DNA of 64,000 nt from Haliotis asinina. Lineage: Eukaryota > Mollusca > Gastropoda > Lepetellida > Haliotidae. Below, one piece after another: positions 11,801-48,400 of this stretch (position 1 is its first letter; the number at the start of each line of letters is the position of its first letter). The position numbers were made by a program, and so were the translations under genes. The stretch is taken from positions 48,584,645 through 48,648,644 of the forward strand of contig NC_090281.1 in the NCBI RefSeq assembly GCF_037392515.1, written 5' to 3'. The notes below the pieces were generated by a model that was not told the origin of the DNA, did not search any database, and worked only from the letters and a program-made list of their open reading frames with translations.

Positions 11801-14800
11801 AGATGAATAATTCCTTTTGAATGTACAGTATGGTTCAAAATTATTGAGAATAGCTAAAGCATTTCATATTATTAAACGAGAACAAATCAGATAAAATTGA
11901 ATGTATTGTGAAAGTGAACTGACCTTTTCATGTTGTGTAGGTAACAATTTAATATTTTATCAAGTCTCCTTGAGCTTCACGGCACAGTCTAAGACGGGTA
12001 GGCATACTTCCTATCAGAGAGGTTAGTGTCTCGTGAGTTATGCTGTCCCAGTATCGAACCACTTCTCTCTTCATGTCTTCAATTTTTGTCAACCCCTTTT
12101 GATTCACACATTCCTTCATCATCCCCCAAATGTTCTCAATGGGATTTAAGTCAGGACTATATGCAGGAAATGGTAATGCAGTCACATTTTTCTCCTGAAA
12201 CCACTGCTTGGCATGTTTTGCGGTGTGTTTAGGATCATTATCTTGCTGCAAAATCCAGTCATTTCCATAAAACACATGTGCACTTGGAAGGAGAAAATTA
12301 TCTAATATGTTAGTGTAGCGTTGACTTGTCAGATTTCCCTCAAACACACACAGCAGGGTCGTTCCTAATAAGGATATCCCTCCCCATACATGAAACTTGG
12401 GGCTGTATTTAGGTCGTCGATACAACGGTGCTGACGCAGACTTTGTCCATATTTTCACATTATTGAGATATACCCATATTGAGCTTTCATCAGTAAAAAT
12501 CACATTTGCCCAGTCAAAGTTTTCATGTGCCAAACACCACTCAACACGCCTGTCTTTATGTTCTTGTTTCATGAGAGGAGAAGGAATTCCAGTCTTTTTC
12601 TCCCATCCAAGATCAATCAAATTTCTTCTAACTGTAGATTTTGATACAACTGTTGATGCCCTTTCTATCATTTCATACCTGATGTTGGAGATGCTTGCCC
12701 TTTGCTTTTTAGACGCTAAAATTCCCAGTCGGACGCGATCTGAGAAGTCTGATTTTCTGGGTCTCCCTGCTCCTTTCTGGTGCCCAAAATTCTTTCCCTC
12801 TTTAAAATTCTTCCTAATCCTATACACAGTAGAAAGAGGAGTTCCTGTTCTCTCTGCCAATGTATTTACATCATCAATTCCTTGATTGCACAACTCAAAA
12901 ATCAACCTTCTTTTATCTTCAGCAGACATTGTTGACAGTGCTGAGGAAAATGACGTCTGCTACAAATTCAGGGGAGGTAACTCTAATTGTACTATACTCA
13001 GTAGGCCAAGATGAGTTACCTCCCTTATACCATTACTTAGTTTTAAGTATCAGTGAATCAGTTGAGGTGTTAGGATAGCTCAAAGTAAGAAGAAAAATTC
13101 TCAGTAATTATGAACCAGACTATATATGTATTTGACATTACATCATTACAATTTGCAGCAAACAGAATGCAGTAACTTTGTTTTGAATCATGCTTTTGTT
13201 TGTCCAGCAGTGAATGGGTACCAGATAGGAAAAGTTGGTAGTTTGGCTGCTATCTTTCCCCTAAAGTATCTGAACTAGTCAGTATAATAATGAAGCACTT
13301 TCCACATGCTTCACTTTTGTTTCTCTGTAATCTTCCAGGAACCTGATATAGTGCTTATTTTGCTGTGATATTCATTGAGTTCAGGATTAACTGGGAGGTT
13401 AAAGCCCTCATTTATCATGGTGAAAGCTGTATTCTATTCAATACAATGTGAAGCCAATTGATTTGGCTGAATTATTGTGAAAAACGGCACCAAATCATAC
13501 GCACTCACTCTTGTAATTTGATGATGTCCAGTGCCAGGAAGTGATGTGGACGGTGAGGTTGACTTCACAGACTCCCAGCTGTGTGAGGCAGTCAATATGG
13601 AGGAATCAGCAAAGTAAGAGAAACCCTGGAACACTTTGTAAATAAAATTATTTGTAGGATATTCTGATACTGAATTTTAATTTTAACATATGTCAGATGG
13701 AAGGACAGAGTTGTTTACTAATATCTGTGAAAAGACATTTAAACAGATTCCTTTAGTGTGAGAAGCTACATCTGCCTCACAGTGCACATATATTAATGCT
13801 TACCATAGCATGATACATATACCAGTACTTAAGTCTTAGGTATTTTACATTTCATAAATATTGCTCTTTGTTAAATACATTTTAACAGATGTAAAACATA
13901 AATAGATATGATGTTATACATATTGTCTGTTTTATTGTCATTGTTATTATTGATTGCATCCATGAATGTTTTATGCTACAACTGATGTGTCACAAATTTG
14001 ATAACTGTTTTCATCAATTTACTTAGTAACTGTGCGTTCATATTGATAAAGTCATCAGAGTTACCTCCCTTCTCACATGGTATGCATAATCTTGGCTCAA
14101 GCAAATTCAAATTGATAGTTTGGAATCAAGTTTGATCAAGTCTCAGTAATATATATTAGCTTGGAACCAGTATTGATACTGAAGGGTTAGAACAAAACTT
14201 TACAAGCCATGGTAAAGAACATATTCAGGAATGAATATATTTGCTGTTGCTATAGAATGGGGTGACCCTTACCGCAAATGAAAAACCAGACAAAGGGGAG
14301 TCCTTAAACCTGTCTTTTTTTAACTGACATGAGTCTGGTTCACATCTGTAGTGGATGCTTCAAAGGAGATTACGATATTACAATAGATGCACTTGAAATT
14401 TGTGCTTAATCAACATGAGCCAAAACTGAAGTATTATTATGTTGTTCTCTAAATATAGGTTATGATGCGTTTAGTGTATCAAATAGATTATGACATTTTT
14501 GTGGATAAACTATTAGTCTTATATTGAATATTGTGTTAGACTAGTATGTATCTCAAAGCATTTTGTTAACTATGTAGCTATAATGTATACCTTTGTTAAT
14601 ACTACATCTCTGAGATGGGTTTGTGTTCCTTTACACTGGTGTCTTTTTCTAAGCAACTGCTGATTATTGTGAAAATTAATATATTTACATTTTCACACAC
14701 CTGAATCTAAATATGTTACTCATTGTGGTAATACTTACTAAGTAAATTCTATAATAATTACTATTTCATGATAGCAAGCAAAATGAAGAATCTGCACTGC

Positions 14801-18724: not shown

Positions 18725-19042
18725 CATGCCTTCCTATGTTGACCTAGCGGCATTCAGATAACAGTCACACGAAGAAGGGATGTGTCACTGCTCTTGCACA
18801 ACTGGTTGTCAACTTTATTGTGGACAGCTTATCACTACGTTTTGTCCTACATGGAGTGATAATTAACATATAGCACGGATATAGCACTGATTCATACACA
18901 TATATCATTATCGCTTAGGAATAATAACTCCCACCTCGAGTGAGTGTTTCATTTGGCTGTGTCTACGCAGATATTGTTTGCTAACTGTGAGCTTGTGGCA
19001 AAAAGGGTCACACTCCATAAACAGGTTGTTGTTTCAGCCACT

Positions 19043-22000
19043 ATGTTGAAACTGCTGCTGTTAGTGACCTTTCTTTGCTGCGTAGGTACGTTATTGGGTC
19101 AAGAGGATGCGTATCTTGATATAGAACAGAACCACAGACGGTTAAACGAGAATTTTGAGTCTCGACGTGTTGTAAACATAGTCATAGATACTGTATCAAA
19201 GAAATTGTTCAGTATCGGAGAAAGTGTAGACAGGAAAAGCGAGGCGATTCAGAGAGGAGAGATCGATGGTGAGGCTGAAAGTGATGCAGTTTTCGACAAT
19301 CCCCAGGGGGATGGGAATCTCCGCCAGATGCTGGGTAGTCTTCAGGACACACGAGATGTATGTATCAACCATACCCAGCAAGTGATCACTGCCGTTATGG
19401 AAAACAAAGACTGGGCTCTAGAGAGTAAGTATATTTCATCCAGATGTGACAACTGTAGCTACAAGCAAACTCTTGCATTCAATATTGAATATGTGCATTC
19501 ATTGAGGACCACCTGCCCTAGTACTCGTTGTAAGAGTCCTGCCCAAAGGTGTTGAGCCCAAAGCATCACTTGGGGAAACTGGTACGTCACAGTGTACACA
19601 GTGGGGATCCACTCACATAGTCGCGGGTTTCACCGTACCTCACGAACTAAGTCGGAGATGGTCCCAAGCGGGTTTCGTTGACGGGAACACAGGTCATGAC
19701 TAACTATGAGGTCATGATGACCTACAACAGTGTCATGACTACACGTACAGTTTGTAACACAGACTACCCGTCTGACCTGTTTTCTGTTCGGGCCAGTGAG
19801 GGTTCTGGTTATGAATCTCTATTTGCAGTCAAACACAGCATCGATGAACACTCAAGCTATAGTAAAGAAACGGTGGGTATGGGACAGACATGCCCGTCAC
19901 GACCCTGCTTAGAATTAGTCTTCATCAACCTGTGCTTGTCGTAAGAGACGAGACGGTTCGGTCATTCTGAGTTGGTTGACGTCGTCATCTCTCCTCTCAA
20001 CTGTTCATCACAGAAATCTCTGGTTCAGATCCAGTCAAATACAGATCGCTGCCATATAGCTGGAATATTGCTGAGTGTTGCGTTACTCAACAAACAAACT
20101 GAGACAGACAGGTGAGAGACTGAAGTTGTGAACACCGGTTGAGACAGCTGCATACTTTAATACTGGCTGGTATATATCTACTTCCAGCGAATGTTTTCAG
20201 GATTCGTATATCCCATGTTCACGATGATAGACTCAAACTTGTCATAAAACTAATACTGATTTGACCACTGGCATATTTACAGTGCTGGATGCGTTCGGTA
20301 AGCCTGGCAGTGGCATTCTCAAGGGAGAACTCAAGTGGCTGGGATCATTTGATGAATGTATTGGAGTCATCACCAATAGGACTGAGGTGGACTTCGGTGC
20401 CACGTATTGCACAGCTCTCTTGCAGCCCCCCAATCAGGTAGGCGACCAAACTGTCCAATATTTGATAAATAACCAAAGAAAACCAGGTTTTGTCGTTAGA
20501 TACTAGTATTTCACCATCGTTTGAAAATTTCATGTAAAACAAGTTCAGCGAAATATTAATTCCAGATAATGACTTTGAGGTTAGTGGTCCCAAAACACAG
20601 GCGAAAAGGTTTCGTCGAAATGAAAAATACCTTTACTTTCAGTTGATAAAAGCATCGCTTATTTTGGAGCAAATATTGAACAGAAATCATGGTGGAAAAT
20701 GAGTTATGCCACAATTTCCCTCTCATTTGGCTGGCAATGTGATACCACTTTAAACTTTATGCTCCTGACGACCAAGCATTTCACCACTTACTGAGCATTC
20801 ATTTGATATTCAAAGCAGTTGGGGACGGTGTCTCCCACACTTCACGCCCAAACAACTGTTGCACTGAAGAATACGTGTACACTCCTGACATCGTCTTCGC
20901 TGTCAAGAACTCATTGTTCAAACTGATAGAGCCTTACAAGAAATGATTGTAGAGAGTTCTATAGCTCCAACTCCTCACAATCGAAGATTGTGTCAGCGTC
21001 ATGTCGTATGTTCCACCTGCTTGCTCTGTCCAGAAGGTGAAAAACGAGTTCTAGTTTAGCAGTTCAGAGAGCAGTTGATTATGATTGACGAATCCAATGT
21101 ATGTGTGAATCGTAGTCTGGATATAGCCCTATCTGAGCACTGGCACTTCTGAACCTCATCATCACAATACAGTTTTACCTCCGCAGAGTGCTTATTACAT
21201 CCTAGTGTCTCAGTGCCGACGTCGACCATTCTTGGTCAATCGCTTGATCAGATTCCAGCCAAGGAAGAAGCATCACTCTCAGCTGAGGTAGAGACGCAGG
21301 GTTGGACTTTTGAAGTGGGGCCTGGATTATTATCTGGTTAGAGCATACCCACGGGAAGATGATCAAAGATGAGGCCATATAAGAGACAATTGCCTTTTCT
21401 CTTTAGAAGAAATTTGGGAAATTTCGGAAGCTCATCCCTGCCTGTGAACAAATTTCCATAACACATCAGTAATAACGACTCGTGCATGTGTCTGTGTGAA
21501 TTCAGTTACTGACTGATGACAGGATCATCCAAGTGAGTACTACACTGGAGCTGAATAAGAGTCATTTGCTCTGCAGCGCACTTGTAAGGCAATTCTGCTG
21601 ATCCAGGCGTCGATCATTTTCAGGTGACTAGTTCTACGCCGGTTTCAAGAAAAACTGCCCTAGTCTGACCTGAATCCACTCTCACAGACGCTTTTAAAAC
21701 ATGCCTGATCCAGAAGTGTCGAGGGTACATGGTCAGGGTCGTTGTCTGGGAAAGGCCTCGTGACTTGATCACTCAGAAAATTATGAAGATGCTTGTAAAG
21801 AAAAGAACGAATTATGTCACCATGGTCCTGGATAGAAATATAATGACTATAATGAAAGTGTCCAATGTTATGTTTTATTATAGAGCACACTCTTGTGTTG
21901 CAAAACTTGAATACGGCTACGAAACCTAAAGAAAAAAATGCTGGCTACAAACAGCAATAGCGTTCCCCTTGAACACCAAATGGTCACTTCTTTAATACCT

Positions 22001-25000
22001 GATATGATCAATCTTCTTTTATTATAATACTTTTACGTGAACTCTAATTAATCTTCGACTCACAGTAACTTCCCGATTTCTGTTTTACTGCAGACTAGCC
22101 TAGTAGATCCCACCCAGCTCGCCATCACTCTCGGACTATGCATGCCAGACACCTGCACAGGCCAAGACGTCTCCGCCATTGCCACAGACCGTAAACTATC
22201 ACCTTTTCCTTCCAAACATTCCCAGGCACAATAGACCATTCCACGAAACTAACTGCCTTAGCGAAACATCAGTCGTAGCTCCCTCTATACTTTCGTTTCC
22301 TTTATTCTTCCATGTATGAACCATGAACCAAGTCCACCTCCACGGTATTGGTCAGTTCATTATGGACACTTCATATTACAGCTTGTTTCTCTACTTCGCA
22401 TTGACAGAACAATTCGCCTCACAACAGTTTAAGCAAACCTTTAATGCGCATTTTGTTGTGTACATCTATGCCGCAATCATACGAGTGGCCGCATTAGAAT
22501 TTACGTTCTCTCTTCGCAATAATTCAGCTATATATTGGCATTAACCATAAAAACACTTTAATTAAATCTCTTGTCTTTTACGTCTTCGGCTTACAGTGAG
22601 ATGGGTATGGATTTTAGGCTGTTTTAAAATAAAAAAATAACGCGGCTTGGACACCAGAACTGTATACCTAGCGTTCAGTGTGACGTGAGAACTCCTCAGT
22701 CAAACCCACTACGGCGATTACAGAAATATGTTGTATTATCCACAGGGGCTTGTATCGCTTTAAAACGGCGTTCGAAAGACATATATGTGTATAGACCCTA
22801 CCCTAGTACTATGTAAAAAGATCCTTTTGAAACGGCGTTCGAAAGACATATATGTGTATAGACCCTACCCTAGTACTATATAAAAAGATCCTTTTATATA
22901 GTACTAGGGTAGGGTCTATACACATGTATGTCTTTCGAACTCCGTTTCAAAGCGATACAAGCCCCTGTGGCATTATCACTCTTCCATTGCTTCCCGTGAA
23001 GATCCGGGTTACAATTGATCCTCAGGATCTTCAACAACCCACGCTTGTTCCAGGACTCGAGTAATAAGGTCGAGTTTAGACTGGTTAACAACGTCATCGT
23101 ATCCCAATTTGCGTAGATTAATGCCTATGTTGTTGATCACTTGATTGTTTGGTCCAAACTAGATTATTAAAGACTCCCTACAGGTAAAATATTGTTGAGT
23201 GCAGCGTTGATCAACAAGCAATCACATAAATTCAGGGTCGTTATAATGGACATAATATTGAATAACGGAAGTAGAATGGATCCTAAATAGTGACATATTC
23301 GATCCTTTATTGACTGGACCTTTTTCTACTGTTAGTGCTGATGTCTCAGAACATAGCCCTGCTGGCGAGTGTTACCTGTTATCAGAAGGACTTCCCTCTC
23401 GACACGGATGCCATAGTCGCCATGTAAGTTGGGAAACTTCGTCCAATTTCAAACACATCGACGATGTTGTACTCCGATAGGAAACCTGTGCTTGAAGATC
23501 AGAAATTTGATTTACGAAGCCGGTTAGCGGACGGAAAGTATTCTATATGATAGGCACAACCATGCAGTACTTTCGGATCTATTTAGGGTTGATTTCTGTA
23601 TCTAGGTAACAAACATATACGGGCAGTTCAGAATGGCGCCAAATGAAAACCTTGCCTTACTTAGCTTAGTATCTGAAGAATATTTTGTTGGATTTCTCCC
23701 TTGGATTCAGGTGACTGGGTCTTTTATGAAGGATTTGTGACACTTTGACGTAAACGATTTAAGTGTATTCCTTACAAAGCCAGTACAGAATATGCAACCA
23801 AAGCCTTGGTAACTAAAGTGCGAGTACCACAGTAGGATTGCTTGATGCATCCAAATAAACATGAAACGCGGCTGCGTATGCGTCGAGTGTTTGGGGGAAG
23901 TATACCATCAATTTTGTGATATAATAACTTAGAAACTTTCCATTTGAAAACATATATATTCTTTTACAAATACATTTATTTGTTCAAGGTATTAAGAAGC
24001 TTAGTCTCATTTTTTTTTCTTTTTTGGTGGTTTCTTGATAATTTCTTTGCAAGTTTACTCATACCATATATCATAACGAATAATACTCACCATGTATTAA
24101 GGAAACAGTATTCACACCATGCATTATAGATGAGGTAATCACACCATGTATTTTCTGACCAAGTCTCACGCCCTGTATCAAAAGCAACTGCACTATGCAG
24201 TATGTGAACAATATCCACATTCACATTATATGAAACATTCACATCATACGTTAAATGAGCAGTATCCATAGAATGTGAAACCAGGAAAATATTCACACTG
24301 CATTAAATGAACAATATTCATATCGGACATTTTATCAACAATATTCATGTCAGGCATTTTATGAACAATATTCATATCAGGCATTTAATGAATAATATTC
24401 ACACCATGTATCATAAGCACATTGTTCACAATACAATATATCAACAATATTCACCATGTTTTGCAAGAAACAATACTCAGTTTGTGCATAATTACACCGA
24501 TGATTCTAGGATAGGTTAAGTCTATACCAAAGGAAGTACACGTATGAATATTAATTGTGATTAACTGTATGATTTTGGTTCATTTCAGTGTCATTTGTTC
24601 AGTATTTGGTGTGCTGGTCATTCTTGGAACAGGGTATGACGTCATAGTCATTCAAATGCGCAAAGGTGATTTTTTCAAGACGAGTGATAAATCCACTGGA
24701 GCGGCAGTACCAGGCGATGGCAAAGAAGTAGCTGACTCTGAAAAGGTCCCACTGCTATCGGAATCAACTTCTGTGAGCATTGAAGACGCTCAGGCGGTAC
24801 AAGAAAATGGACAGGACTGTCTACCCGACCAGCGACAAACCACCAGTAAACCACAAGACCAAAAATCGGGTAATAATTTGGAACTTTAGTCACGAGTGTC
24901 GGTTTCCCGCTTATATGAGAAATCTTCAATGTCTTCGTTTGTACATCAGTCGCGTAGCTGGACAGTGCATTCCAGCTACGTAAGAGAGTGTGAAACAGAT

Positions 25001-28000
25001 AAGCCAGTGATTGATAGTTGAGCACCGTTCAATGTCTTCGGAGTCAGATGAAGTACAGCCAATTGTCACGGTATATGTTTTGATATCCATCGTATTTCGT
25101 GATTGTATTGGCAATAATATCAACAGCACGGCGAGAATTAATGGATGTCAACTTCTTACTTGAGGAACGCGATGTTGGGGAGTATATTCTTAATCCTTTC
25201 TCATACAAATGTGTAAGAAATACAAGGGTAGTCAGTAGCTAAAGTGATATACATTATATTTTTCTCCCGATTTTGATCCAACACGTGTTCACCCATGGAC
25301 ACGATACGCTTGAAGTATCACACACAAATTACAGGGAATATGGTGCAAAGTGATCAAAGTTGCTGATGTCAAGTGTCATACTGTTCATATTGATCACTGG
25401 ACTAACTGTCATATCCACATTCAATTATTTACTCATTGGTGTCATATACTTGGAATATTGCTGGGTGCGGCATTAAACAACAAATAACACCCATGATCAT
25501 AAATCTTTCAAACTTTCCTCCAGAACTATCTGCAGAACTTGTATGTATTCTCCTGTCATGCTTTTTTTTTATTTACAGAACCATCTCCTAGTCTGTGGTT
25601 TAAGAGGTTGTTAGCATTCTCTGTCTACAGAACCATCTCCCAGGCTGTAGTGTGAGAGGTTGTTAGCATTCTCTGTCTACAGAACCATCTCCCAGGCTGT
25701 AGTGTGAGAGGTTGTTAGCATTCTCTGTCTACAGAACCATCTCCCAGGCTGTAGTGTGAGAGGTTGTTAGCATTCTCTGTCTACAGAACCATCTCCCGGT
25801 CTGCTGTTTCAGAGGTTGTTAGTATTCATTGTGTGAAAACCATCTCCCTGCGATCTGCTAATTACACTGTTCCCGTTCTCTTTCTGCAGAACGGCCTCAT
25901 GGACTTGGTATCAAACTGTTGTTGTCATTCTCTGCCTACACAAACGGAGCAAAGCTGCTAGATACAAGACAAGTCCCTGGGAGCCTGACAGCTGTACACG
26001 GGATCCGCTTTCTCAGCATGACATGGGTTGTTCTGGGACATGCTTTCTCCAGTCTTCTTTCAATGGGGTGTAAGTGCTGAATCATTTGAAACTTGGCCAA
26101 ATGCATTTTACTTTCATTAATATTTTGACAACATGAATCGCAATGAACAGCTTTTATTCGATAATCACACTTCTCTTAGGTTCACTTTTGACACAATAAA
26201 AGTAGTATATACCTTTCCGAAAATGCATTATTGAATCGGTTGGTTGGTTTGTTTGTTATTTATTATTGTTGCTTGTTCTTTATTTTTTACTTCACAGCAA
26301 ATTATAGCCATGTGTATGTCTTACCAATATGCAAGCTGGCAATCATTTTCCTGTACATATATGTCAACTTGCATCATCATATATTCAACTCAATTTCTGA
26401 TACATAGATTTATTTCTTTATGATAACTTGCTTTCATAAAGTAGATACAGTGTGTGAAGCCCATGCCAGGTGTCCCAGCCGTGATATTAATGGAATATTG
26501 ACGAGTATTGTAACAACCAACTTACTCACCCACTTTCCATCTTTCAGCTAATCTTGCCCCCTTTCTCCAAGAGAGTATCAGCAGGTGGACCTTCCACGGA
26601 ATTCTCAATGCTCTTGTATCCGTTGATACATTCTTCACATTAAGGTAAGGAGCGACGAGGTAGTACAGTGGTTAAAGGTCCGCTAGTCGTCGATTCCCCA
26701 CATGGGTAAAATTTATGAAGCCCGCTCCTGGTGTCTGCTGCAATGATATTGCTAAAAGCTACGTAAAACCTCAGACACTCAATAACAGGCCCACCTAAGT
26801 AATTGGAGGAATTACAGCAATTTTGAAGGAATTGCATCTCAAATGTAAACAAACGCAGCCCACTCGCGAAACATATCGGTAATTTAGCGGTAATAACAGA
26901 AACACATAGGCCATATCGGAAGCAATGTCGCTAATACTTGAAACACGCTCGGCCGTTTTCGGAGATTTTTCGGCTCACTTCCGTGATTTGTCGGTCGCGA
27001 GCGGAAACTCACGCAGCAAGGAGGTTCAGATGTAAACATCCTCAAGGGGCATGACTTGTGACACTCTTCTGCAGTGACAGTCTTTTCCTGAAAAAAATAA
27101 GCTATAGATCCAACAACACCTCATACCTAAACGCATTCAACACGGGTGGTCAAAGATAGATAAGTATAAAAATCTAATAGTAGGAACCACAAACAAAACT
27201 CACCGAGACGGGTGTTTCTTCGAACGACGCCATGTTTAGCTGCGTGAGTTTCCGCTCGCGACCGACAAATCACGGAAGTGAGCCGACAAATCTCCGAAGA
27301 CGGCCGAGCGTGTTTCAAGTATTAGCGACATTGCTTCCGATATGGCCGATGTGTTTCTGTTATTACCGCTAAATTGCCGATATGGCTGCAATTGTTTCGC
27401 GAGTGGGCTGCGTTTGTTTACATTTTAGATGCAATTCCTTCAAATTTGCTGTAATTCCTTCAATTACTTAGGGGGGCCTGAATAAGGTAAAGTACAACCA
27501 ATACGATCACTATATCAGATATATCAACGACATTTAAGTGTTACCGTCTCGTGTGTATGGCGGGTGTTACCAATGGACCTCTTCACGAACACCAGGTTTT
27601 GTCACTTTTGGCATGTCGCAGTCATATTTAAATATTGTCGAGTAGGATTAAACAATAGTGAACTAGAAAACTTTCCACATGTATTTTGTGAAGGTCACTC
27701 CGAAAACATTTCGTTTGTTTTCTTGACTAGTGGGCTGCTTGTCGCCTATCTGGCCATGAAGGAGCTAAAGAAAGGCCAAGGAAAGCTAAATTGGGCCATG
27801 TTCTACTTCCACAGATTCTGGAGGTAGGTGTAACCCCAACAGTTGTACAGAATATATCTGTATAGATTCCGAAATGAAATATAGCTTCAAATATTACTTT
27901 ACCCCTTTGGTACATAAAAAGGAAAGGCGGTATGGTAGCCGAATGGTCATGCCGAAGTCCTGGGATCGACTGCCTACAAGGGTAAAATGTGTGAAGCCCA

Positions 28001-31000: not shown

Positions 31001-34000
31001 TTGTCATAGTATCCTCATGATTTCAGCTACTGTTTTTCCTTGGTTGTCATGGAATACTCATGCTTTCAGCCACTGGCTTGTTAGACCCAGACACAGTGTG
31101 GACAAAGTGGTATAGTGACGGTGACTTGAAACAACAACTCTTTCTTCCTTATTTCTAGTTCGGAGATGCTCGGTATGATTGTGATCGGCGTATTCCTTGC
31201 TGCTACTCTCACGACTGCTGGATTGATATCAAGGCTTGACAACATACCCGTTGGTGTCTTCTACCAGACGGAGGGAAAGCAGTAGGTTTTCTGTCTTTTA
31301 TATAGCTATAAACTTATCGTTTCATTGATTTATAATAGTGGATGTTCATTTTAACAGACTCGATCATATATGTTTTATGTGGCACTAGTAAAATCTGACT
31401 CTAGCACATGTAAGTATCATCGACGAAAATTAAAACAGTTTTCTATGTAGACATGTATCTTTTCCGGAGGTATGAATATATTACGTGGATGAAAGTATAA
31501 TCTAGGTAGATATCAGTATATTTTACGTGGATGAAAGATTCTTCTACGTAGATAGGAGAATATTTTACGTAGATGAAAGTATCGTCTACGTAGGTGGGAG
31601 TATATTTTACGTAGATGAAAGTATCGTCTACGTAGGTATGAGCATATTTTACGTAGATGAAAGTACCGTCTACGTAGGTATGAGCATATTTTACGTGGAT
31701 AGAAGATTCATCTACGTAGATATGAGTATATTTTACCTGGATGGAGGTATTATCTACGTATGACCATATTTTACGTGGATGAAAGTATGTTGTACGTAGA
31801 CGTAAGTATCAACGACGTATAAGATATTTTCTTCAGCCTGCTGCACGGATACGCTTCTATAGTATTCAGCTTAACGAAATTAAATATCTGCACCATCCAT
31901 TCTAAATCTAACAAAACTGTCCCTTTTTTCAGGGGTCTTGCCGATTTTAGCGACTACTACATGACTCCCTACTGTCGGATGGGTCCATACCTCATTGGCA
32001 TAGTCGCCGGATATCTCCTGTACAAAACCAACTGTAAACTCCGCCTAAATAAGGTTAGTCTAAAACTGCAGCTTAACAAGAAAAGTGAAACCAGACAGAT
32101 TACATGGATGCCAGATAGTGAGTGGGTGAAATTAGTTGTACGCCTTTAGCAACATTCCTGCAATATCACGACGGGGGACACCCTAAAATGGGCTTCACAC
32201 AATGTACCCATGTGAGGAATCGAACCCGATCTTCGGCATGACGAGCGACCATTTTGGCCACTAGGCGGCCAGAAGGTATTGTTAAATTGATGAATGTACA
32301 GATTTTCCACCCGTACCATCAGTAATGGGTATTATGCTATAGAGAGTTATGTTTGTAGAGACTTGTGAAGGTCCGGGTCAGAATATTGGCCTTCAGTAAT
32401 CCATGCATATCGTAAGTGTTGACTAACGGGATCTGACGGTCGGACTGGCTGGCTTGGTTGACACATGTCATCGGTTCCCAGTTGCGCAGATCGATGTGCG
32501 TGCTGTTCACTGGATTGTCTTATCCAGACTCCCTTATTTACAGACCGCCGCCATATTGCTGGTGTTTTGCTGAGTGAGGTGTAAAACTCACTCACTCACT
32601 CACTCACTCACTCACTCACTCACTCACTCACTCACTCACTCACTCACTCACTCACTCACTCACTCACTCACTCACTCACTCTGTTGGTACAATTCTTACT
32701 TAAGAAAGCAGTGTTGGTCGGATGGGCTGTGGCAGCTGCGTCCGCTCTCGCAGTGCTTTATGGGCCGTACGAATCAGCCAATGGGACGCCGATGCCGAGT
32801 GACGTTTCAGCATTTTACAACTCGGCTCACAGGACGGTGTGGGGAGCTGCAGTCTGCTGGGTTGTGGTGGCGTGTGCAACAGGGAACGGAGGTAGGACTG
32901 CAATATCCAAGCCTGACTCAACATGTGCAGCCCAAACTGGACATCTTCTCTTGTAGCAGAAGTTGTTCTTCTAACAACAAAGAACATGTCATCTGACAGT
33001 TACTTGATGTTTTTTTAGACTAAGTTCGAATCGTTTCCTTGGAAATCATGATAAATGCCAAGTGACAGTAAACAGCAAAAGGTACCACTTCAAGGTCTAC
33101 CTCATATATTACCAAGTTCTGCTGATATCAAATGGTTTTCAAATGGTTGATACCAAATGGTTTTCAAGTTGTGCTCAGGAAAGGAACAGAATCCCTCCCA
33201 TTTTAGACCAAGTCTAAATCGTTGCCATTTAAATCGGAAAAAACAAAAGTGACTAAAATCTGTAAATACCAAAAGGCACCACTTTGGGGTCTGCCACACA
33301 TATCTACCAAGTTCTGCTGAAAGATATTAAGAAGTTTTAAAGTTATGCTCCGGAAATGGAGCTCTTCCATTTTGAGACAGTCATAATCGTTCCCATGGAA
33401 ACCGGGTAAAACTTTTAGGGCGTTCCCATACTTTTTGTTTGCAGTATATGTACACAGTATGAGAGTCTTCTTGAGCCAGGAGGATACCAGTATTGATCTT
33501 CCCATTTTGGATATAAATTCCGATTAAATTAAGTGCAGGTGCCTTTCGTAGAATAACTTAGGAAGGTTGCTACATATTGACTCCAAGGAATTGTCATGTA
33601 TGTTACTCGTACAACCCGTTACAATTTCAGAGACTAATTCTATAGCAGAACCACAACAGATAATATTTACACTGATCGCTCACGTTATAAATACAAGAGT
33701 CATCCGAAGATGACATATCCCCCCGGCCGCCACATATTTGAAAGGTACATATTTGACAGGACAAATCATCTGACAGTTACTTGATGATTTTTTAGACTAA
33801 GTCTGAATCGTTTCCATGGAAATCATAAATGTCATATATCTGTAAACAGCAAAAGGCACCACTTCAAGATCTGTCTCATATATCTGCCAAGATCTGTTGA
33901 ACGATATGAAATGGCTTTCAAGTTGTGCTAGAACTGTTTCAGTGGAAACCGGGAAAAATGCCAAAACTTTGTAAATAGCAGAAGGCACCCTTTTGTCATC

Positions 34001-42400: not shown

Positions 42401-45400
42401 GGCCGAATTAAAATTAAATTTATGGTCTCTTCGCAGTAATTCAGCTATATATTGGTACTAACCACAAAATCAAATTAAATCATTAAATCAAATCGCCCGT
42501 TTGCTACGAATTAGGTCTAGCGTTACAAGGTGGGTTTTGGATATTTACGCTGGTTTAAAATCCAGCAATATCGTGGCTAGGACACCAGAAATGTATTTCT
42601 GGTGCAAACTAGCGTTTGGTGTGACTTGAGAACTCTTCATTCATTCTGTGTCCTGGTCCCGGATCAAGTCCATTACGGCGATTACAGAAATATGTTGCAT
42701 TATCACTCTTCCATTGCTTCCCGTGAAGATCCGGGTTAGAATTGATCCTCAGGATCTTCAGCAACCCACGCTTGTCCTTGGACTCGAGTAATAAGGTCGA
42801 GTTTAGACTGGTTAACAACGTCATCGTATCCCAATTTGCGTAGATTAATGCCTATGTTGTTGATCACTTGATTGTTTGGTCCAAACTAGATTATTAAAGA
42901 CTCCCTACAGGTAAAATATTGTTGAGTGCAGCGTTGATCAACAAGCAATCACATAAATTCAGGGTCGTTATAATGCACATAATATTGAATAACGGAAGTA
43001 GAATGGATCCTAAATAGTGACATATTCGATCCTTTATTGACTGGACCTTTTTCTACTGTTAGTGCTGATGTCTCAGAACATAGCCCTGCTGGCGAGTGTT
43101 ACCTGTTATCAGAAGGACTTCCCTCTAGACGCGGATGCTATAGTCGCCATGTAAGTGAGACTTCGTCCAATTTCATAAAAATCAACGATGTTGTACTCCG
43201 ATAGGAAACCTGTGCTTGAAGATCAGAAATTTGATTTACGAAGCCGGTTAGCGGACGGCAAGTAGTCTATGTGCTAGGCACAACCATGCAATACTTTCGG
43301 ATCTATTTAGGGTTGATTTCTGTATCTAGGTAACAAACATATACGGTCAGTTCAGAATGGCGCATTACTTAGCTTACTATCTGAAGAATATTTTGTTGGA
43401 TTTCCCCCTTGGATTCAGGTGACTGGGTCTTTTATGAAGGATTTGTGACACTTTGACGTAGACGATTTACGTGTATTCCTTACAAAGCCAGTACAGAAGA
43501 TACAACCAAAGCCATCGTAACTAAAGTGCGAGTACCACAGTAGGATTGCTTAATGCATCCAAATAAACCAGAAACGCGGCTGCGTATGCTCCGAGTGTTT
43601 GGGTGAAGTATACCATCAAGTTTTTGATGTAATAACTTAGAAAGTTACCATTTGAAAACATATATATTCTTTACGTTTATTTGTTCAAGGTATTAAGAAG
43701 AAAAAATTCTTAGCAACCTTATTCATACCATGTATCATGACGAACAATGGTCACCATGCATTATAGAAACAGTATTTACACCATGCATTATACAAGAGAT
43801 AATCACACCATGCATTTTCTGACCAAGTTTCACGCCCTGTATCAAAGGCAACTGCACTATGCAGTATGTGAACAATATTCACATCATACATTATATGAAC
43901 CATTCACATCATTACGTCATGTGAATAGTATTCATACAATGTGAAACAAGGAAAATATTCACACTGCATTAAATGAACAATATTTATATCACGCATTTTA
44001 TGAACAATATTCATATCAGGCATTTAATGAATAATATTCACACCATGTATCATAAGGACATTGTTCACAATACAATATATAAACAATATTCCCCATGCTT
44101 TGCAGGAAACAATACTCATTTTGTGCATAATTGCACAGATGATTCTAGGATAGGATAAGTCTACACAAAAGGAAATACATGTATGAATATGAGTTGTGAT
44201 TAACTGTATGATTTTGGTTCATTTCAGTGTCATTTGTTCAGTATTTGGTGTGCTGGTCATTCTTGGAACAGGGTATGACGTCATAGTCATTCAAATGCGC
44301 AAAGGTGATTTTTTCAAGACGAGTGATAAATCCACTGGAGCGGCAGTACCAGGCGATGGCAAAGAAGTAGCTGACTCTGAAAAGGTCCCACTGCTATCAG
44401 AATCAACTTCTGTGAGCATTGAAGATGCTCAGGCGGTACAAGAAAATGGACAGGACCGTCTGCCCGACCAACGACAAACCACCAGTAAACCACAAGACCA
44501 AAAATCGGGTAATAATTTGGAACTTTTGTCACGAGTGTCGATTTCCCGCTTATATGAGAAATCTGCAATGTCTTCGTTTGTACATCAGTCGCGTAACTGG
44601 ACAGTTCATTTCAACTACGTAAGAGAGTGTGAAAAAGATAAGTCAGTGATTGATAGTTGAGCACCGTTCAATGTCTTCGGAGTCAGATGAAGTACAGCCA
44701 TTTGTCGCGATATATGTTTTGATATCCATCGTATTTCGTGATTGTATTGGCAATAATATCAACAGCACGGCGAGAATTAATGGATGTCAACTTCTTACTT
44801 GAGGAACGCGATGTTGGGGAGTATATTCTTAATCCTTTCTCAGACAAATGTGCAAGAAATACAAGGGTAGTCAGTAGCTAAAGTGATATATATTATATTT
44901 TTCTCCCAATTTTGATCCAACACGTGTTCACCCATGGACACGATACGCTTGAAGTATCACACACAAATTACAGGGAATATGGTGCAAAGTGATCAAAGTT
45001 GCTGATGTCAAGTGTCATACTGTTCATATTGATCACTGGACTAACTGTCATATCCACATTCAATTATTTACTCATTGGTGTCATATACTTGGAATATTGC
45101 TGAGTGCGGCATTAAACAACAAATAACACCCATGGTTATAAATCTTTCAAACTTTCCTCCAGAACTATCTGCAGAACTTGTATGTATTCTCCTGTCATGC
45201 TTTTTTTTTATTTACAGAACCATCTCCTAGTCTGTGGTTTAAGAGGTTGTTAGCATTCTCTGTCTACAGAACCATCTCCCAGGCTGTAGTGTGAGAGGTT
45301 GTTAGCATTCTCTGTCCATCGAACCATCTCCCAGGCTGTAGTTTGAGAGGTTGTTAGCATTCTCTGTCTACAGAACCTTCTCCCAGGCTGTAGTTTGAGA

Positions 45401-48400
45401 GGTTGTTAGCATTCTCTGTCTACAGAACCATCTCCCAGGCTGTAGTGTGAGAGGTTGTTAGCATTCTCTGTCTACAGAACCTTCTCCCAGGCTGTAGTGT
45501 GAGAGGTTGTTAGCATTCTCTGTCTACAGATCCATCTCCCAGGCTGTAGTTTGAGAGGTTGTTAGCATTCTCTGTCTACAGAACCTTCTCCCAGGCTGTA
45601 GTTTGAGAGGTTGTTAGCATTCTCTGTCTACAGAACCATCTCCCAGGCTGTAGTGTGAGAGGTTGTTAGCATTCTCTGTCTACAGAACCTTCTCCCAGGC
45701 TGTAGTGTGAGAGGTTGTTAGCATTCTCTGTCTACAGATCCATCTCCCAGGCTGTAGTTTGAGAGGTTGTTAGCATTCTCTGTCTACAGAACCTTCTCCC
45801 AGACTGTAGTGTGAGAGGTTGTTAGCATTCTCTGTCTACAGAACCATCTCCCAGGCTGTAGTTTGAGAGGTTGTTAGCATTCTCTGTCTACAGAACCTTC
45901 TCCCAGGCTGTAGTGTGAGAGGTTGTTAGCATTCTCTGTCTACAGAACCATCTCCCAGGCTGTAGTGTGAGAGGTTGTTAGCATTCTCTGTCTACAGAAC
46001 CATCTCCCAGGCTGTAGTTTGAGAGGTTGTTAGCATTTCTGTCTACAGAACCTTCTCCCAGGCTGTAGTTTGAGAGGTTGTTAGCATTCTCTGTCTACAG
46101 AACCTTCTCCCAGGCTGTAGTTTGAGAGGTCGTTAGCATTCTCTGTCCATCGAACCATCTCCCAGGCTGTAGTTTGAGAGGTTGTTAGCATTCTCTGTCT
46201 ACAGAACCTTCTCCCAGGCTGTAGTTTGAGAGGTTGTTAGCATTCTCTGTCTACAGAACCTTCTCCCAGGCTGTAGTGTGAGAGGTTGTTAGCATTCTCT
46301 GTCTACAGAACCATCTCCCAGGCTGTAGTGTGAGAGGTTGTTAGCATTCTCTGTCTACAGAACCATCTCCCAGGCTGTAGTTTGAGAGGTTGCTAGCATT
46401 CTCTGTCTACAGAACCTTCTCCCAGGCTGTAGTTTGAGAGGTTGTTTCCATTCTCTGTCTACAGAACCTTCTCCCAGGCTGTAGTGTGAGAGGTTGTTAG
46501 CATTCTCTGTCTACAGAACCTTCTCCCAGGCTGTAGTTTGAGAGGTTGTTAGCATTCTCTGTCTACAGAACCATCTCCCAGGCTGTAGTGTGAGAGGTTG
46601 TTAGCATTCTCTGTCTACAGAACCATCTCCCAGGCTGTAGTTTGAGAGGTTGTTAGCATTCTCTGTCTACAGAACCTTCTCCCAGGCTGTAGTGTGAGAG
46701 GTTGTTAGCATTCTCTGTCTACAGAACCTTCTCCCAGGCTGTAGTGTGAGAGGTTGTTAGCATTCTCTGTCTACAGAACCATCTCCCAGGCTGTAGTGTG
46801 AGAGGTTGTTAGCATTCTCTGTCTACAGAACCATCTCCCAGGCTGTAGTGTGAGAGGTTGTTAGCATTCTCTGTCTACAGAACCTTCTCCCAGGCTGTAG
46901 TGTGAGAGGTCGTTAGCATTCTCTGTCTACAGAACCATCTCCCGGTCTGCTGTTTAAGAGGTTGTTAGTATGCTTTGTGTAAAAAAACATCTCCCTGCGA
47001 TCTGTTAATTACAGTGTTCCTGTTCTCTTTCTGCAGAACGGCCTCATGGACTTGGTATCAAACTGTTGTTGTCATTCTCTGCCTACACAAACGGAGCAAA
47101 GCTTCTAAATACAAGACAAGTCCCTGGGAGCCTGACAGCTGTACACGGGATCCGCTTTCTCAGCATGACATGGGTGGTTCTGGGACATGCCTTCTCCAGT
47201 CTTCCTTCCATGGGGTGTAAGTGCTGAATCATTTGAAACTCGGCCAAATGCATTTTACTTTCATTAATATTTTGACAACATGAATCGCAATGAACAGCTA
47301 CTATTCATAAACACACTTCTCTTAGGTTCGTTTTTGACACAATAAAAGTAGTATATACCTTTCCGAAAATGCATTATTGAATCGGTTGGTTTGTTTGTTT
47401 GTTATTTATTATTGTTGTTTGTTCTTTATTTTTTACTTCACAGCAAATTATAACCATGTGTAGGTCTTACAAATATGCAAGTTGCCAATCATTTTCCTGT
47501 ACATATATGTCAACTTGCATCCTCATATATTCAACTCAATTTCTGATACATAGATTTATTTCCTTATGATAACTTGCTTTCATAAAATAGATACAGTGTG
47601 TGAAGCCCATGCCAGGTGTCCCAGCCGTGATATTAATGGAATATTGACGAGTATTGTAACACCCAACTTACTCACCCACTTTGCATCTTTCAGCTAATCT
47701 TGCCCCCTTTCTCCAAGAGAGTATCAGCAGGTGGACCTTCCACGGAATCCTCAATGCTTTTGTATCCGTGGATACATTCTTCACATTAAGGTAAGGAGCG
47801 ACGAGGTAGTACAGTGGTTAAAGGTCCGCTAGTCCTCGATTCCCCACATGGGTAAAATGTGTGAAGCCCGCTCCTGGTATCTGCTGCAATGATATTGCTA
47901 AAAGCTACGTAAAACCTCAGACACTCAATAACACTGAATAAGGTAAAAGTCCAACCCATACGATCACTATATCAGATTTATGAACGACATTTAGGTGTTA
48001 CCGTCTCATGTGTGTATGGCGGGTGTTACCAATGGACCTCATCACGAACACCAGGTTTTCTCACTTTTGGCATGCCGCGGTCATATTTAAATATTGTCGA
48101 GTAGGATTAAACAATAGTGAACCAGAAAACTTTTCACAAGTATTTTGTGAAGGTCCGACCGAAAACAGTTTCGTTTGTTTTCTTGACTAGTGGGCTGCTT
48201 GTCGCCTATCTGGCCATGAAGGAGCTAAAGAAAGGCCGAGGAAAGCTAAATTGGGCCATGTTCTACTTCCACAGATTCTGGAGGTAGGTGTAACCCCAAC
48301 AGTTGTACAGAATATATCTGTATAGATTCCGAAATGAAATATAGCTTCAAATATGACTTTACCCCTTTGGTACATAAAAAGGAAAGGCGGTATGGTAGCC

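Follow-up and report, generated by a model that had tools for sequence, protein, structure and literature searches.

A 52-bp minisatellite matching the start of its neighbouring exon in tandem NRF-domain genes of the abalone Haliotis asinina

The stretch of DNA analysed here, called the window below, comprises 64,000 nucleotides of Haliotis asinina contig NC_090281.1 (assembly GCF_037392515.1, positions 48,584,645 to 48,648,644 of the forward strand), and our subject in it is a 52-bp minisatellite that fills the 3′ end of an intron in an NRF-domain gene and stops where the next coding exon is predicted to begin. The host gene is present in three tandem copies spaced about 20 kb apart, at 18944, 39414 and 58908, the third being cut by the window end. 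A Pfam scan located the NRF domain (PF20146, E 6.1e-11) in copy 1 at 20231-20506, and no Pfam match to an Acyltransferase 3 domain was seen at E 1 among the ten proteins, translated from single open frames and unspliced, that were scanned. The exon model was derived from open frames, splice scores and comparison of the copies, and its exons, like all features below unless noted, lie on the plus strand. In copy 2, predicted exon 5 (44228-44508, with the start assigned from the homologous exon of copy 1) ends in phase 1 at the donor G/GTAATA after 44508, and predicted exon 6 (180 nt, phase 1) occupies 47037-47216. The corresponding exons of copy 1 are at 24589-24869, with the donor after 24869, and at 25890-26069 (180 nt). 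The translation of exon 6 runs RPHGLGIKLLLSFSAYTNGAKLL...HGIRFLSMTWVVLGHAF. An R-X10-H active-site motif had been assigned to this exon in the first-pass annotation; the motif is indeed present as sequence (HGIRFLSMTWVVLGHAF), with a presumed active-site role.

The array in intron 5 of copy 2 (45218-47036) consists of 35 units, 34 of them 52 bp long and one (unit 16) 51 bp, and Tandem Repeats Finder (TRF) described it with a period of 52, 34.3 copies and 95% matches. Its paralogue in copy 1 (25579-25889) has six units, five of 52 bp and one (unit 5) of 51 bp. The position of the array, and an exon border in register with it by steps of 51-52 bp, had been noted at the outset and held up well, since the unit boundaries run on to 47036 and 25889 and exon 6 follows with the very next base, 47037 and 25890. 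At the left edge of the array is unit 1 (45218-45269), identical in both gene copies. The interior units 2-33 (45270-46932) are homogenised and each has an in-frame TAG, as do units 2-4 of copy 1. Units 34 and 35 (46933-47036) form a diverged right edge, and unit 35 holds a branch-point candidate together with the putative real acceptor. Just outside unit 1 lies a T-rich, acceptor-like left edge (45200-45217) that ends in ATTTACAG, is followed by AACC in identical fashion in both copies, and reaches an acceptor score of 9.90, which is equalled or exceeded by 13 of the 3535 AGs outside the arrays.

It had further been proposed that every unit ends like an acceptor. This is true of most units, but three of 35 in copy 2 (units 2 and 18, ending in CCATCG, and unit 34, ending in TAAAA) and one of six in copy 1 (unit 5) have no AG at their ends. 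The number of decoy acceptors, given earlier as about 34 and about 5, accordingly comes to 32 in copy 2 (31 unit ends and the left edge), and the figure of five is retained for copy 1 (four unit ends and the left edge).

From the alignments, it is clear that the opening 52 bases of exon 6 (47037-47088), overlooked in the first reading, themselves belong to the array family as its in-register member, and they are the likely source of the family. Unit 1, which of all units is nearest to exon 6, agrees with these bases at 34 of 52 ungapped positions, and the array consensus does so at 30 of 52; in neither case did any of 20,000 dinucleotide shuffles reach the observed value. No other 52-mer of the window matches as well (0/61396), and register 0 is the only one that matches at all closely, with 34 identities against at most 17 when unit 1 is rotated by −6 to +6. 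When all rotations are allowed, the two 52-bp arrays again find their best right-flank match at the start of exon 6, with 31 and 32 positions (maximum 28 among 30 shuffles each). The match is strongest at the end of the unit, where 20 of the last 25 bases agree with exon positions 28-52 (0/20000 shuffles), and over the first 27 exon positions unit 1 still agrees at 14 (50/20000 shuffles). Because T and C are abundant in the unit end, in exon positions 28-52 and in the acceptor alike, a chance convergence of pyrimidine-rich sequence might be thought to account for the likeness among the three; however, shuffles that keep the composition reach the observed identity in none of 20,000 trials and the exact register alone matches, and we regard such a convergence as extremely improbable.

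The terminal intronic unit, in which the putative real acceptor lies, also takes part in this likeness. Of its 52 positions, 31 in copy 1 and 30 in copy 2 are those of the array consensus (0/20000 shuffles), and 25 and 23 agree with the exon, values reached by 17 and 99 of 20,000 shuffles, respectively. Since consensus, exon and terminal unit all match one another, exon start, array and real acceptor can be assigned to one family. The original proposal, that the array is an amplified acceptor, is less likely in our judgement, as the unit's last 25 bases are nearer to the exon (20/25) than to the terminal intronic unit (16-17/25) and the match of unit 1 to the exon extends over all 52 bp. Our best reading is that the unit owes its acceptor look mainly to the LLLSFSAYT codons, which are rich in pyrimidines, together with a C-to-G difference in this stretch by which CAC of the exon is CAG in the units, and that the real acceptor would be the last and most diverged unit of the array. 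Taken together, the homology and the register make it probable that we are dealing with a minisatellite of the "mirage" type, composed of decayed copies of the start of exon 6. Close to the acceptor, copy 2 also contains an extra TACAG (47010-47014, 22 nt before the true acceptor, score 4.9), which reads TACAC in copy 1.

Splice sites were scored with acceptor and branch-point matrices that were not trained on this organism. The true exon 6 acceptor scores 12.63 on the acceptor matrix, and among the 32 decoys of copy 2 the score is 10.54 in 30 cases, 8.65 in one, and 9.90 at the left edge. Five other predicted acceptors of copy 1 span 5.2-11.6, so that the unit-by-unit scoring foreseen in the first-pass annotation places most units within the range of acceptors rather than among non-sites. 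This acceptor likeness exceeds chance, because just 7 of the 3535 plus-strand AGs outside the arrays in the window reach 10.54. The branch points of the decoys score lower: all 32 decoys of copy 2 and all five of copy 1 lie at 1.41-2.60, compared with 3.71-5.86 at the five other predicted native sites and with 4.23 (copy 1) and 3.27 (copy 2) at the true site. By summed score, the true site ranks first among the 61 AGs of intron 5 in copy 1 and first among the 233 in copy 2. Splicing at any of the decoys would bring a stop, at codon index 6, 16 or 25 and so within 26 codons.

These values bear directly on the view of the array as an amplified acceptor, with decoys that delay or displace the splicing of exon 6 (in copy 2 to a greater degree than in copy 1) and a unit number that tunes the output. 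That there are 32 upstream acceptor-like AGs in one copy and five in the other, with scores like those of other acceptors and an early stop behind each of them, agrees with this view, and so do the weaker branch-point candidate of copy 2 (3.27 vs 4.23) and the finding that 13 of 32 decoys in copy 2, but none of five in copy 1, are no more than 3 bits away from the true site. The consensus, moreover, is equally near to the terminal acceptor unit and to the exon. There is also a human parallel in the variable number tandem repeat (VNTR) of ABCA7 intron 18, which has a donor in each unit and, according to the portion of the report used here, is associated with altered splicing (PMC5954066). The decoys, however, have the poor branch points described above; unit 1 matches a coding exon over its full length and in register; and amphioxus mirages are reported, in the passages drawn upon, to leave splicing undisturbed (PMC3087553, PMC3902484). 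The coding sequence tells against it as well. Copies 1 and 2 show 25 synonymous and 15 nonsynonymous differences, with an uncorrected nonsynonymous-to-synonymous ratio (pN/pS) of 0.18 (Fisher p 7e-8), over 13 exon cores that were hand-picked among the open frames common to the copies, a choice that biases the value toward conserved stretches. Both gene copies thus appear to be under coding constraint, and on the whole we consider this view unlikely.

Since both copies appear constrained, splicing at the terminal site is expected in most of their transcripts. Normal splicing therefore probably prevails, with a modest decoy leak possible in copy 2, and the constraint argues against a severe effect of the array. 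One could also imagine a rheostat of poison acceptors, in which each added exon-derived unit would act as a decoy leading to an early stop, the number of units would determine how much productive output each paralogue gives, and decoys and working acceptor alike would stem from a pyrimidine-rich coding stretch; this combination we hold to be quite improbable. As for other roles of the units in splicing, ratchet points for recursive splicing were looked for in the copy 2 array and no CAGGT was present, and recursive splice sites were rejected, as an AG directly before a GT donor was not found there. Mini-introns within the units were rejected too, the donor-like GAG/GTTGTT scoring 0.8, and 31% of the GTs in the window score as high. 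On the minus strand (45218-46984), the unit in reverse complement shows TGCTAAC followed by CTCTCACACTACAG, with an acceptor score of 7.9 and a branch-point likeness judged by eye; this is probably due to chance.

Several observations weigh against an origin of the array from the exon and against its quiet splicing. The consensus agrees with just 10 of the first 27 exon positions, which 2312 of 20,000 shuffles also reach, so that homology across the whole 52-bp length would depend on unit 1. As a whole, the consensus is as near to the terminal acceptor unit (30-31/52) as to the exon (30/52), and in its first 27 bases it is nearer to the former (14/27) than to the latter (10/27). Unit 1 itself shows coding constraint no better than plain decay (BLOSUM score 26 vs a null mean of 21.6, fraction 0.35), the other two frames scoring 23 and 23, and its differences from the exon fall on the three codon positions as 6, 5 and 7. 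Although the exon frame is open throughout unit 1 (PSPSLWFKRLLAFSVY), coding constraint on it is not supported, because random decay leaves the frame open in 53% of cases and gives as good a score in 35%. The use of matrices not trained on this organism, the leaning of the exon cores toward conserved stretches and the 13 near-scoring decoys of copy 2 belong on the same side. Finally, homology alone does not decide the direction of copying.

The direction from exon to array is nevertheless favoured, because an exon 6 that began one unit later would need phase 2, but exon 5 ends in phase 1, and because unit 1 is the unit nearest to the exon. In the reverse direction, an intronic minisatellite would have come first, and exon 6 would then have grown upstream by absorbing its last unit. 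Homology, which carries no direction, is as compatible with this course as with the other, but an extension by 52 bp shifts the frame (52 mod 3 = 1), so that a compensating change in exon 5 would be needed, and we find such a history unlikely. An FSxYTN stretch is presumed to occur generally among the NRF-6 proteins of animals; when relatives of exon 6 were sought with a peptide pattern, it was fitted by 33 viral and 395 prokaryotic stretches, and tblastn confirmed none of them.

Comparison of the two gene copies gives some idea of the age of the array. Unit 1 is identical between them (52/52), the last two units agree at 95 of 103 aligned positions (92%), and the adjacent intron agrees at 690 of 709 (97%). 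The edge units are kept between the copies and are distant from the interior, and because they are common to both copies, the array probably predates the gene duplication. The interior of the copy 2 array, in turn, has been homogenised to a mean of 1.91 differences of 52, with 11 distinct sequences among those 31 of its 32 units that have full length. The series of units 4-7 is repeated as units 8-11; as 85 of 2000 shuffled orders also reach such a run, a block duplication within this array is suggested weakly.

With the exon as source, the following history can be put forward. The first 52 bp of exon 6 would have been tandemly duplicated earlier than the gene itself, and the upstream exon copies would then have lost their coding function and become intron. 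The unit number would later have been altered by unequal exchange or slippage, giving six in copy 1 and 35 in copy 2. The last and most diverged unit, with its better pyrimidine tract and its branch-point candidate, would have become the present acceptor, and the T-rich left edge could be a fossil of the original one. The terminal site would be used in both copies, the upstream sites being at most a low-level source of transcripts with stops.

The array belongs to a kind of repeat that is known but has seldom been described, and what is unusual about it is its unit number and the presence, within the array, of what appears to be the working acceptor. Four of six features of mirages are found here, namely an exon part at the boundary, splice signals, edge units that escape homogenisation, and an unstable unit number (6 vs 35 between the paralogues). 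As regards the mirage feature of an intron end within the unit, unit 1 aligns with exon positions 1-52 (14/27 and 20/25) and the terminal unit matches the consensus (30-31/52). For the sixth feature, regular splicing that goes undisturbed, the pN/pS of 0.18 lends indirect support. An interferon-induced transcript is said, in the title of a 1995 article in Nucleic Acids Research, to have a minisatellite of splice donors. It and the ABCA7 VNTR, as far as their accounts go, resemble our array in having splice-site sequence in repeat units beside an exon, but the sites there are donors, whereas here they are acceptor-like ends that match the exon.

Amphioxus mirages occur in the globins BflGb6 and BflGb9, in Adh3 and in TnC, with similar repeats in PGBD5 (PMC3087553, PMC3902484), and further genes were added by the second of these reports (PMC3902484). 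In the parts of those reports used here, they are likewise minisatellite-like tandem duplications at an intron-exon boundary that place exon copies in the intron, with an AG in the units, a variable unit number and unhomogenised edge units. In contrast to the amphioxus unit, which is made of an intron end plus exon, the unit here seems to align wholly to the exon; there are 35 units against six and three in two BflGb6 haplotypes; the host is an NRF-domain gene; and the array includes the putative genuine acceptor. In duplicated human genes, variable minisatellites that lie at exon-intron borders, termed internal tandem repeats, also differ between recent paralogues and may provide new introns, the difference being that, as excerpts of that work have it, alternative forms are supported by transcripts there (PMC2812944). 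In Drosophila, where introns have been gained or have slid through tandem duplication of coding DNA (PMC2891723, PMC2809761), the sections of those papers at hand likewise describe a duplicated coding segment that turns intronic and a new intron that holds stop codons; here, by contrast, the 3′ end of an existing intron would have been lengthened and no new intron is shown. In abalone, intron 3 of a TSSK1-like gene has a length-variable minisatellite with a 27-bp unit (PMC6905558), which is similar in being intronic and variable in unit number and different in that the passages available from that source mention no copying of an exon or splice site. In our literature searches, no comparable array was found reported for an NRF-6 gene or for a mollusc.

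Other minisatellites, with units of 27, 34, 43, 42 and 49 bp, occupy matching places in the two gene copies (copy 1/copy 2: 24300/43966, 30279/50715, 30860/51225, 31476/51848 and 36344/55532, respectively), and their unit numbers are mostly somewhat different between the copies. Both flanks of ten arrays, among which the 27-, 34- and 43-bp arrays of copy 2 were not included, were searched for exon copies, and six of the 20 flanks gave a match above the best of 30 shuffles. Two of these are the right flanks of the 52-bp arrays, where the match is the exon start. In the two 49-bp arrays, the left-flank matches start 61-68 bp before the array and are probably the worn tail of the array itself. 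The remaining two are left-flank matches of the 42-bp array of copy 1, at 31400, and of the 27-bp array of copy 1, at 24102, the latter by one base. None of the left-flank matches of the 49-, 42- and 27-bp arrays among the ten arrays tested lies on a predicted exon.

The core of the unit (27 bases) had no exact match in viral contigs, exon 6 had no match in the PDB at E 10, and Rfam gave no match at gathering score within the window. Upstream of the gene cluster, a 336-aa open frame on the minus strand (11949-12959) has a DDE_3 transposase domain (E 5.8e-17). Directly before a predicted exon of copy 1 there is a perfect ACTC repeat of 24 copies (32586-32681); TRF listed none at the matching place of copy 2, where a short remnant is readable.

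What these genes offer is a clean case, in which paralogues with six and 35 units have introns 97% identical beside the array, exon sequence has seemingly become intron, and one of its units seems to have become the working acceptor. They provide a natural test on two points: how dozens of sites that look like good acceptors are passed over in splicing, and whether minisatellites derived from exons shift the borders of exons. Should splicing prove undisturbed, the array would be an ordinary mirage.

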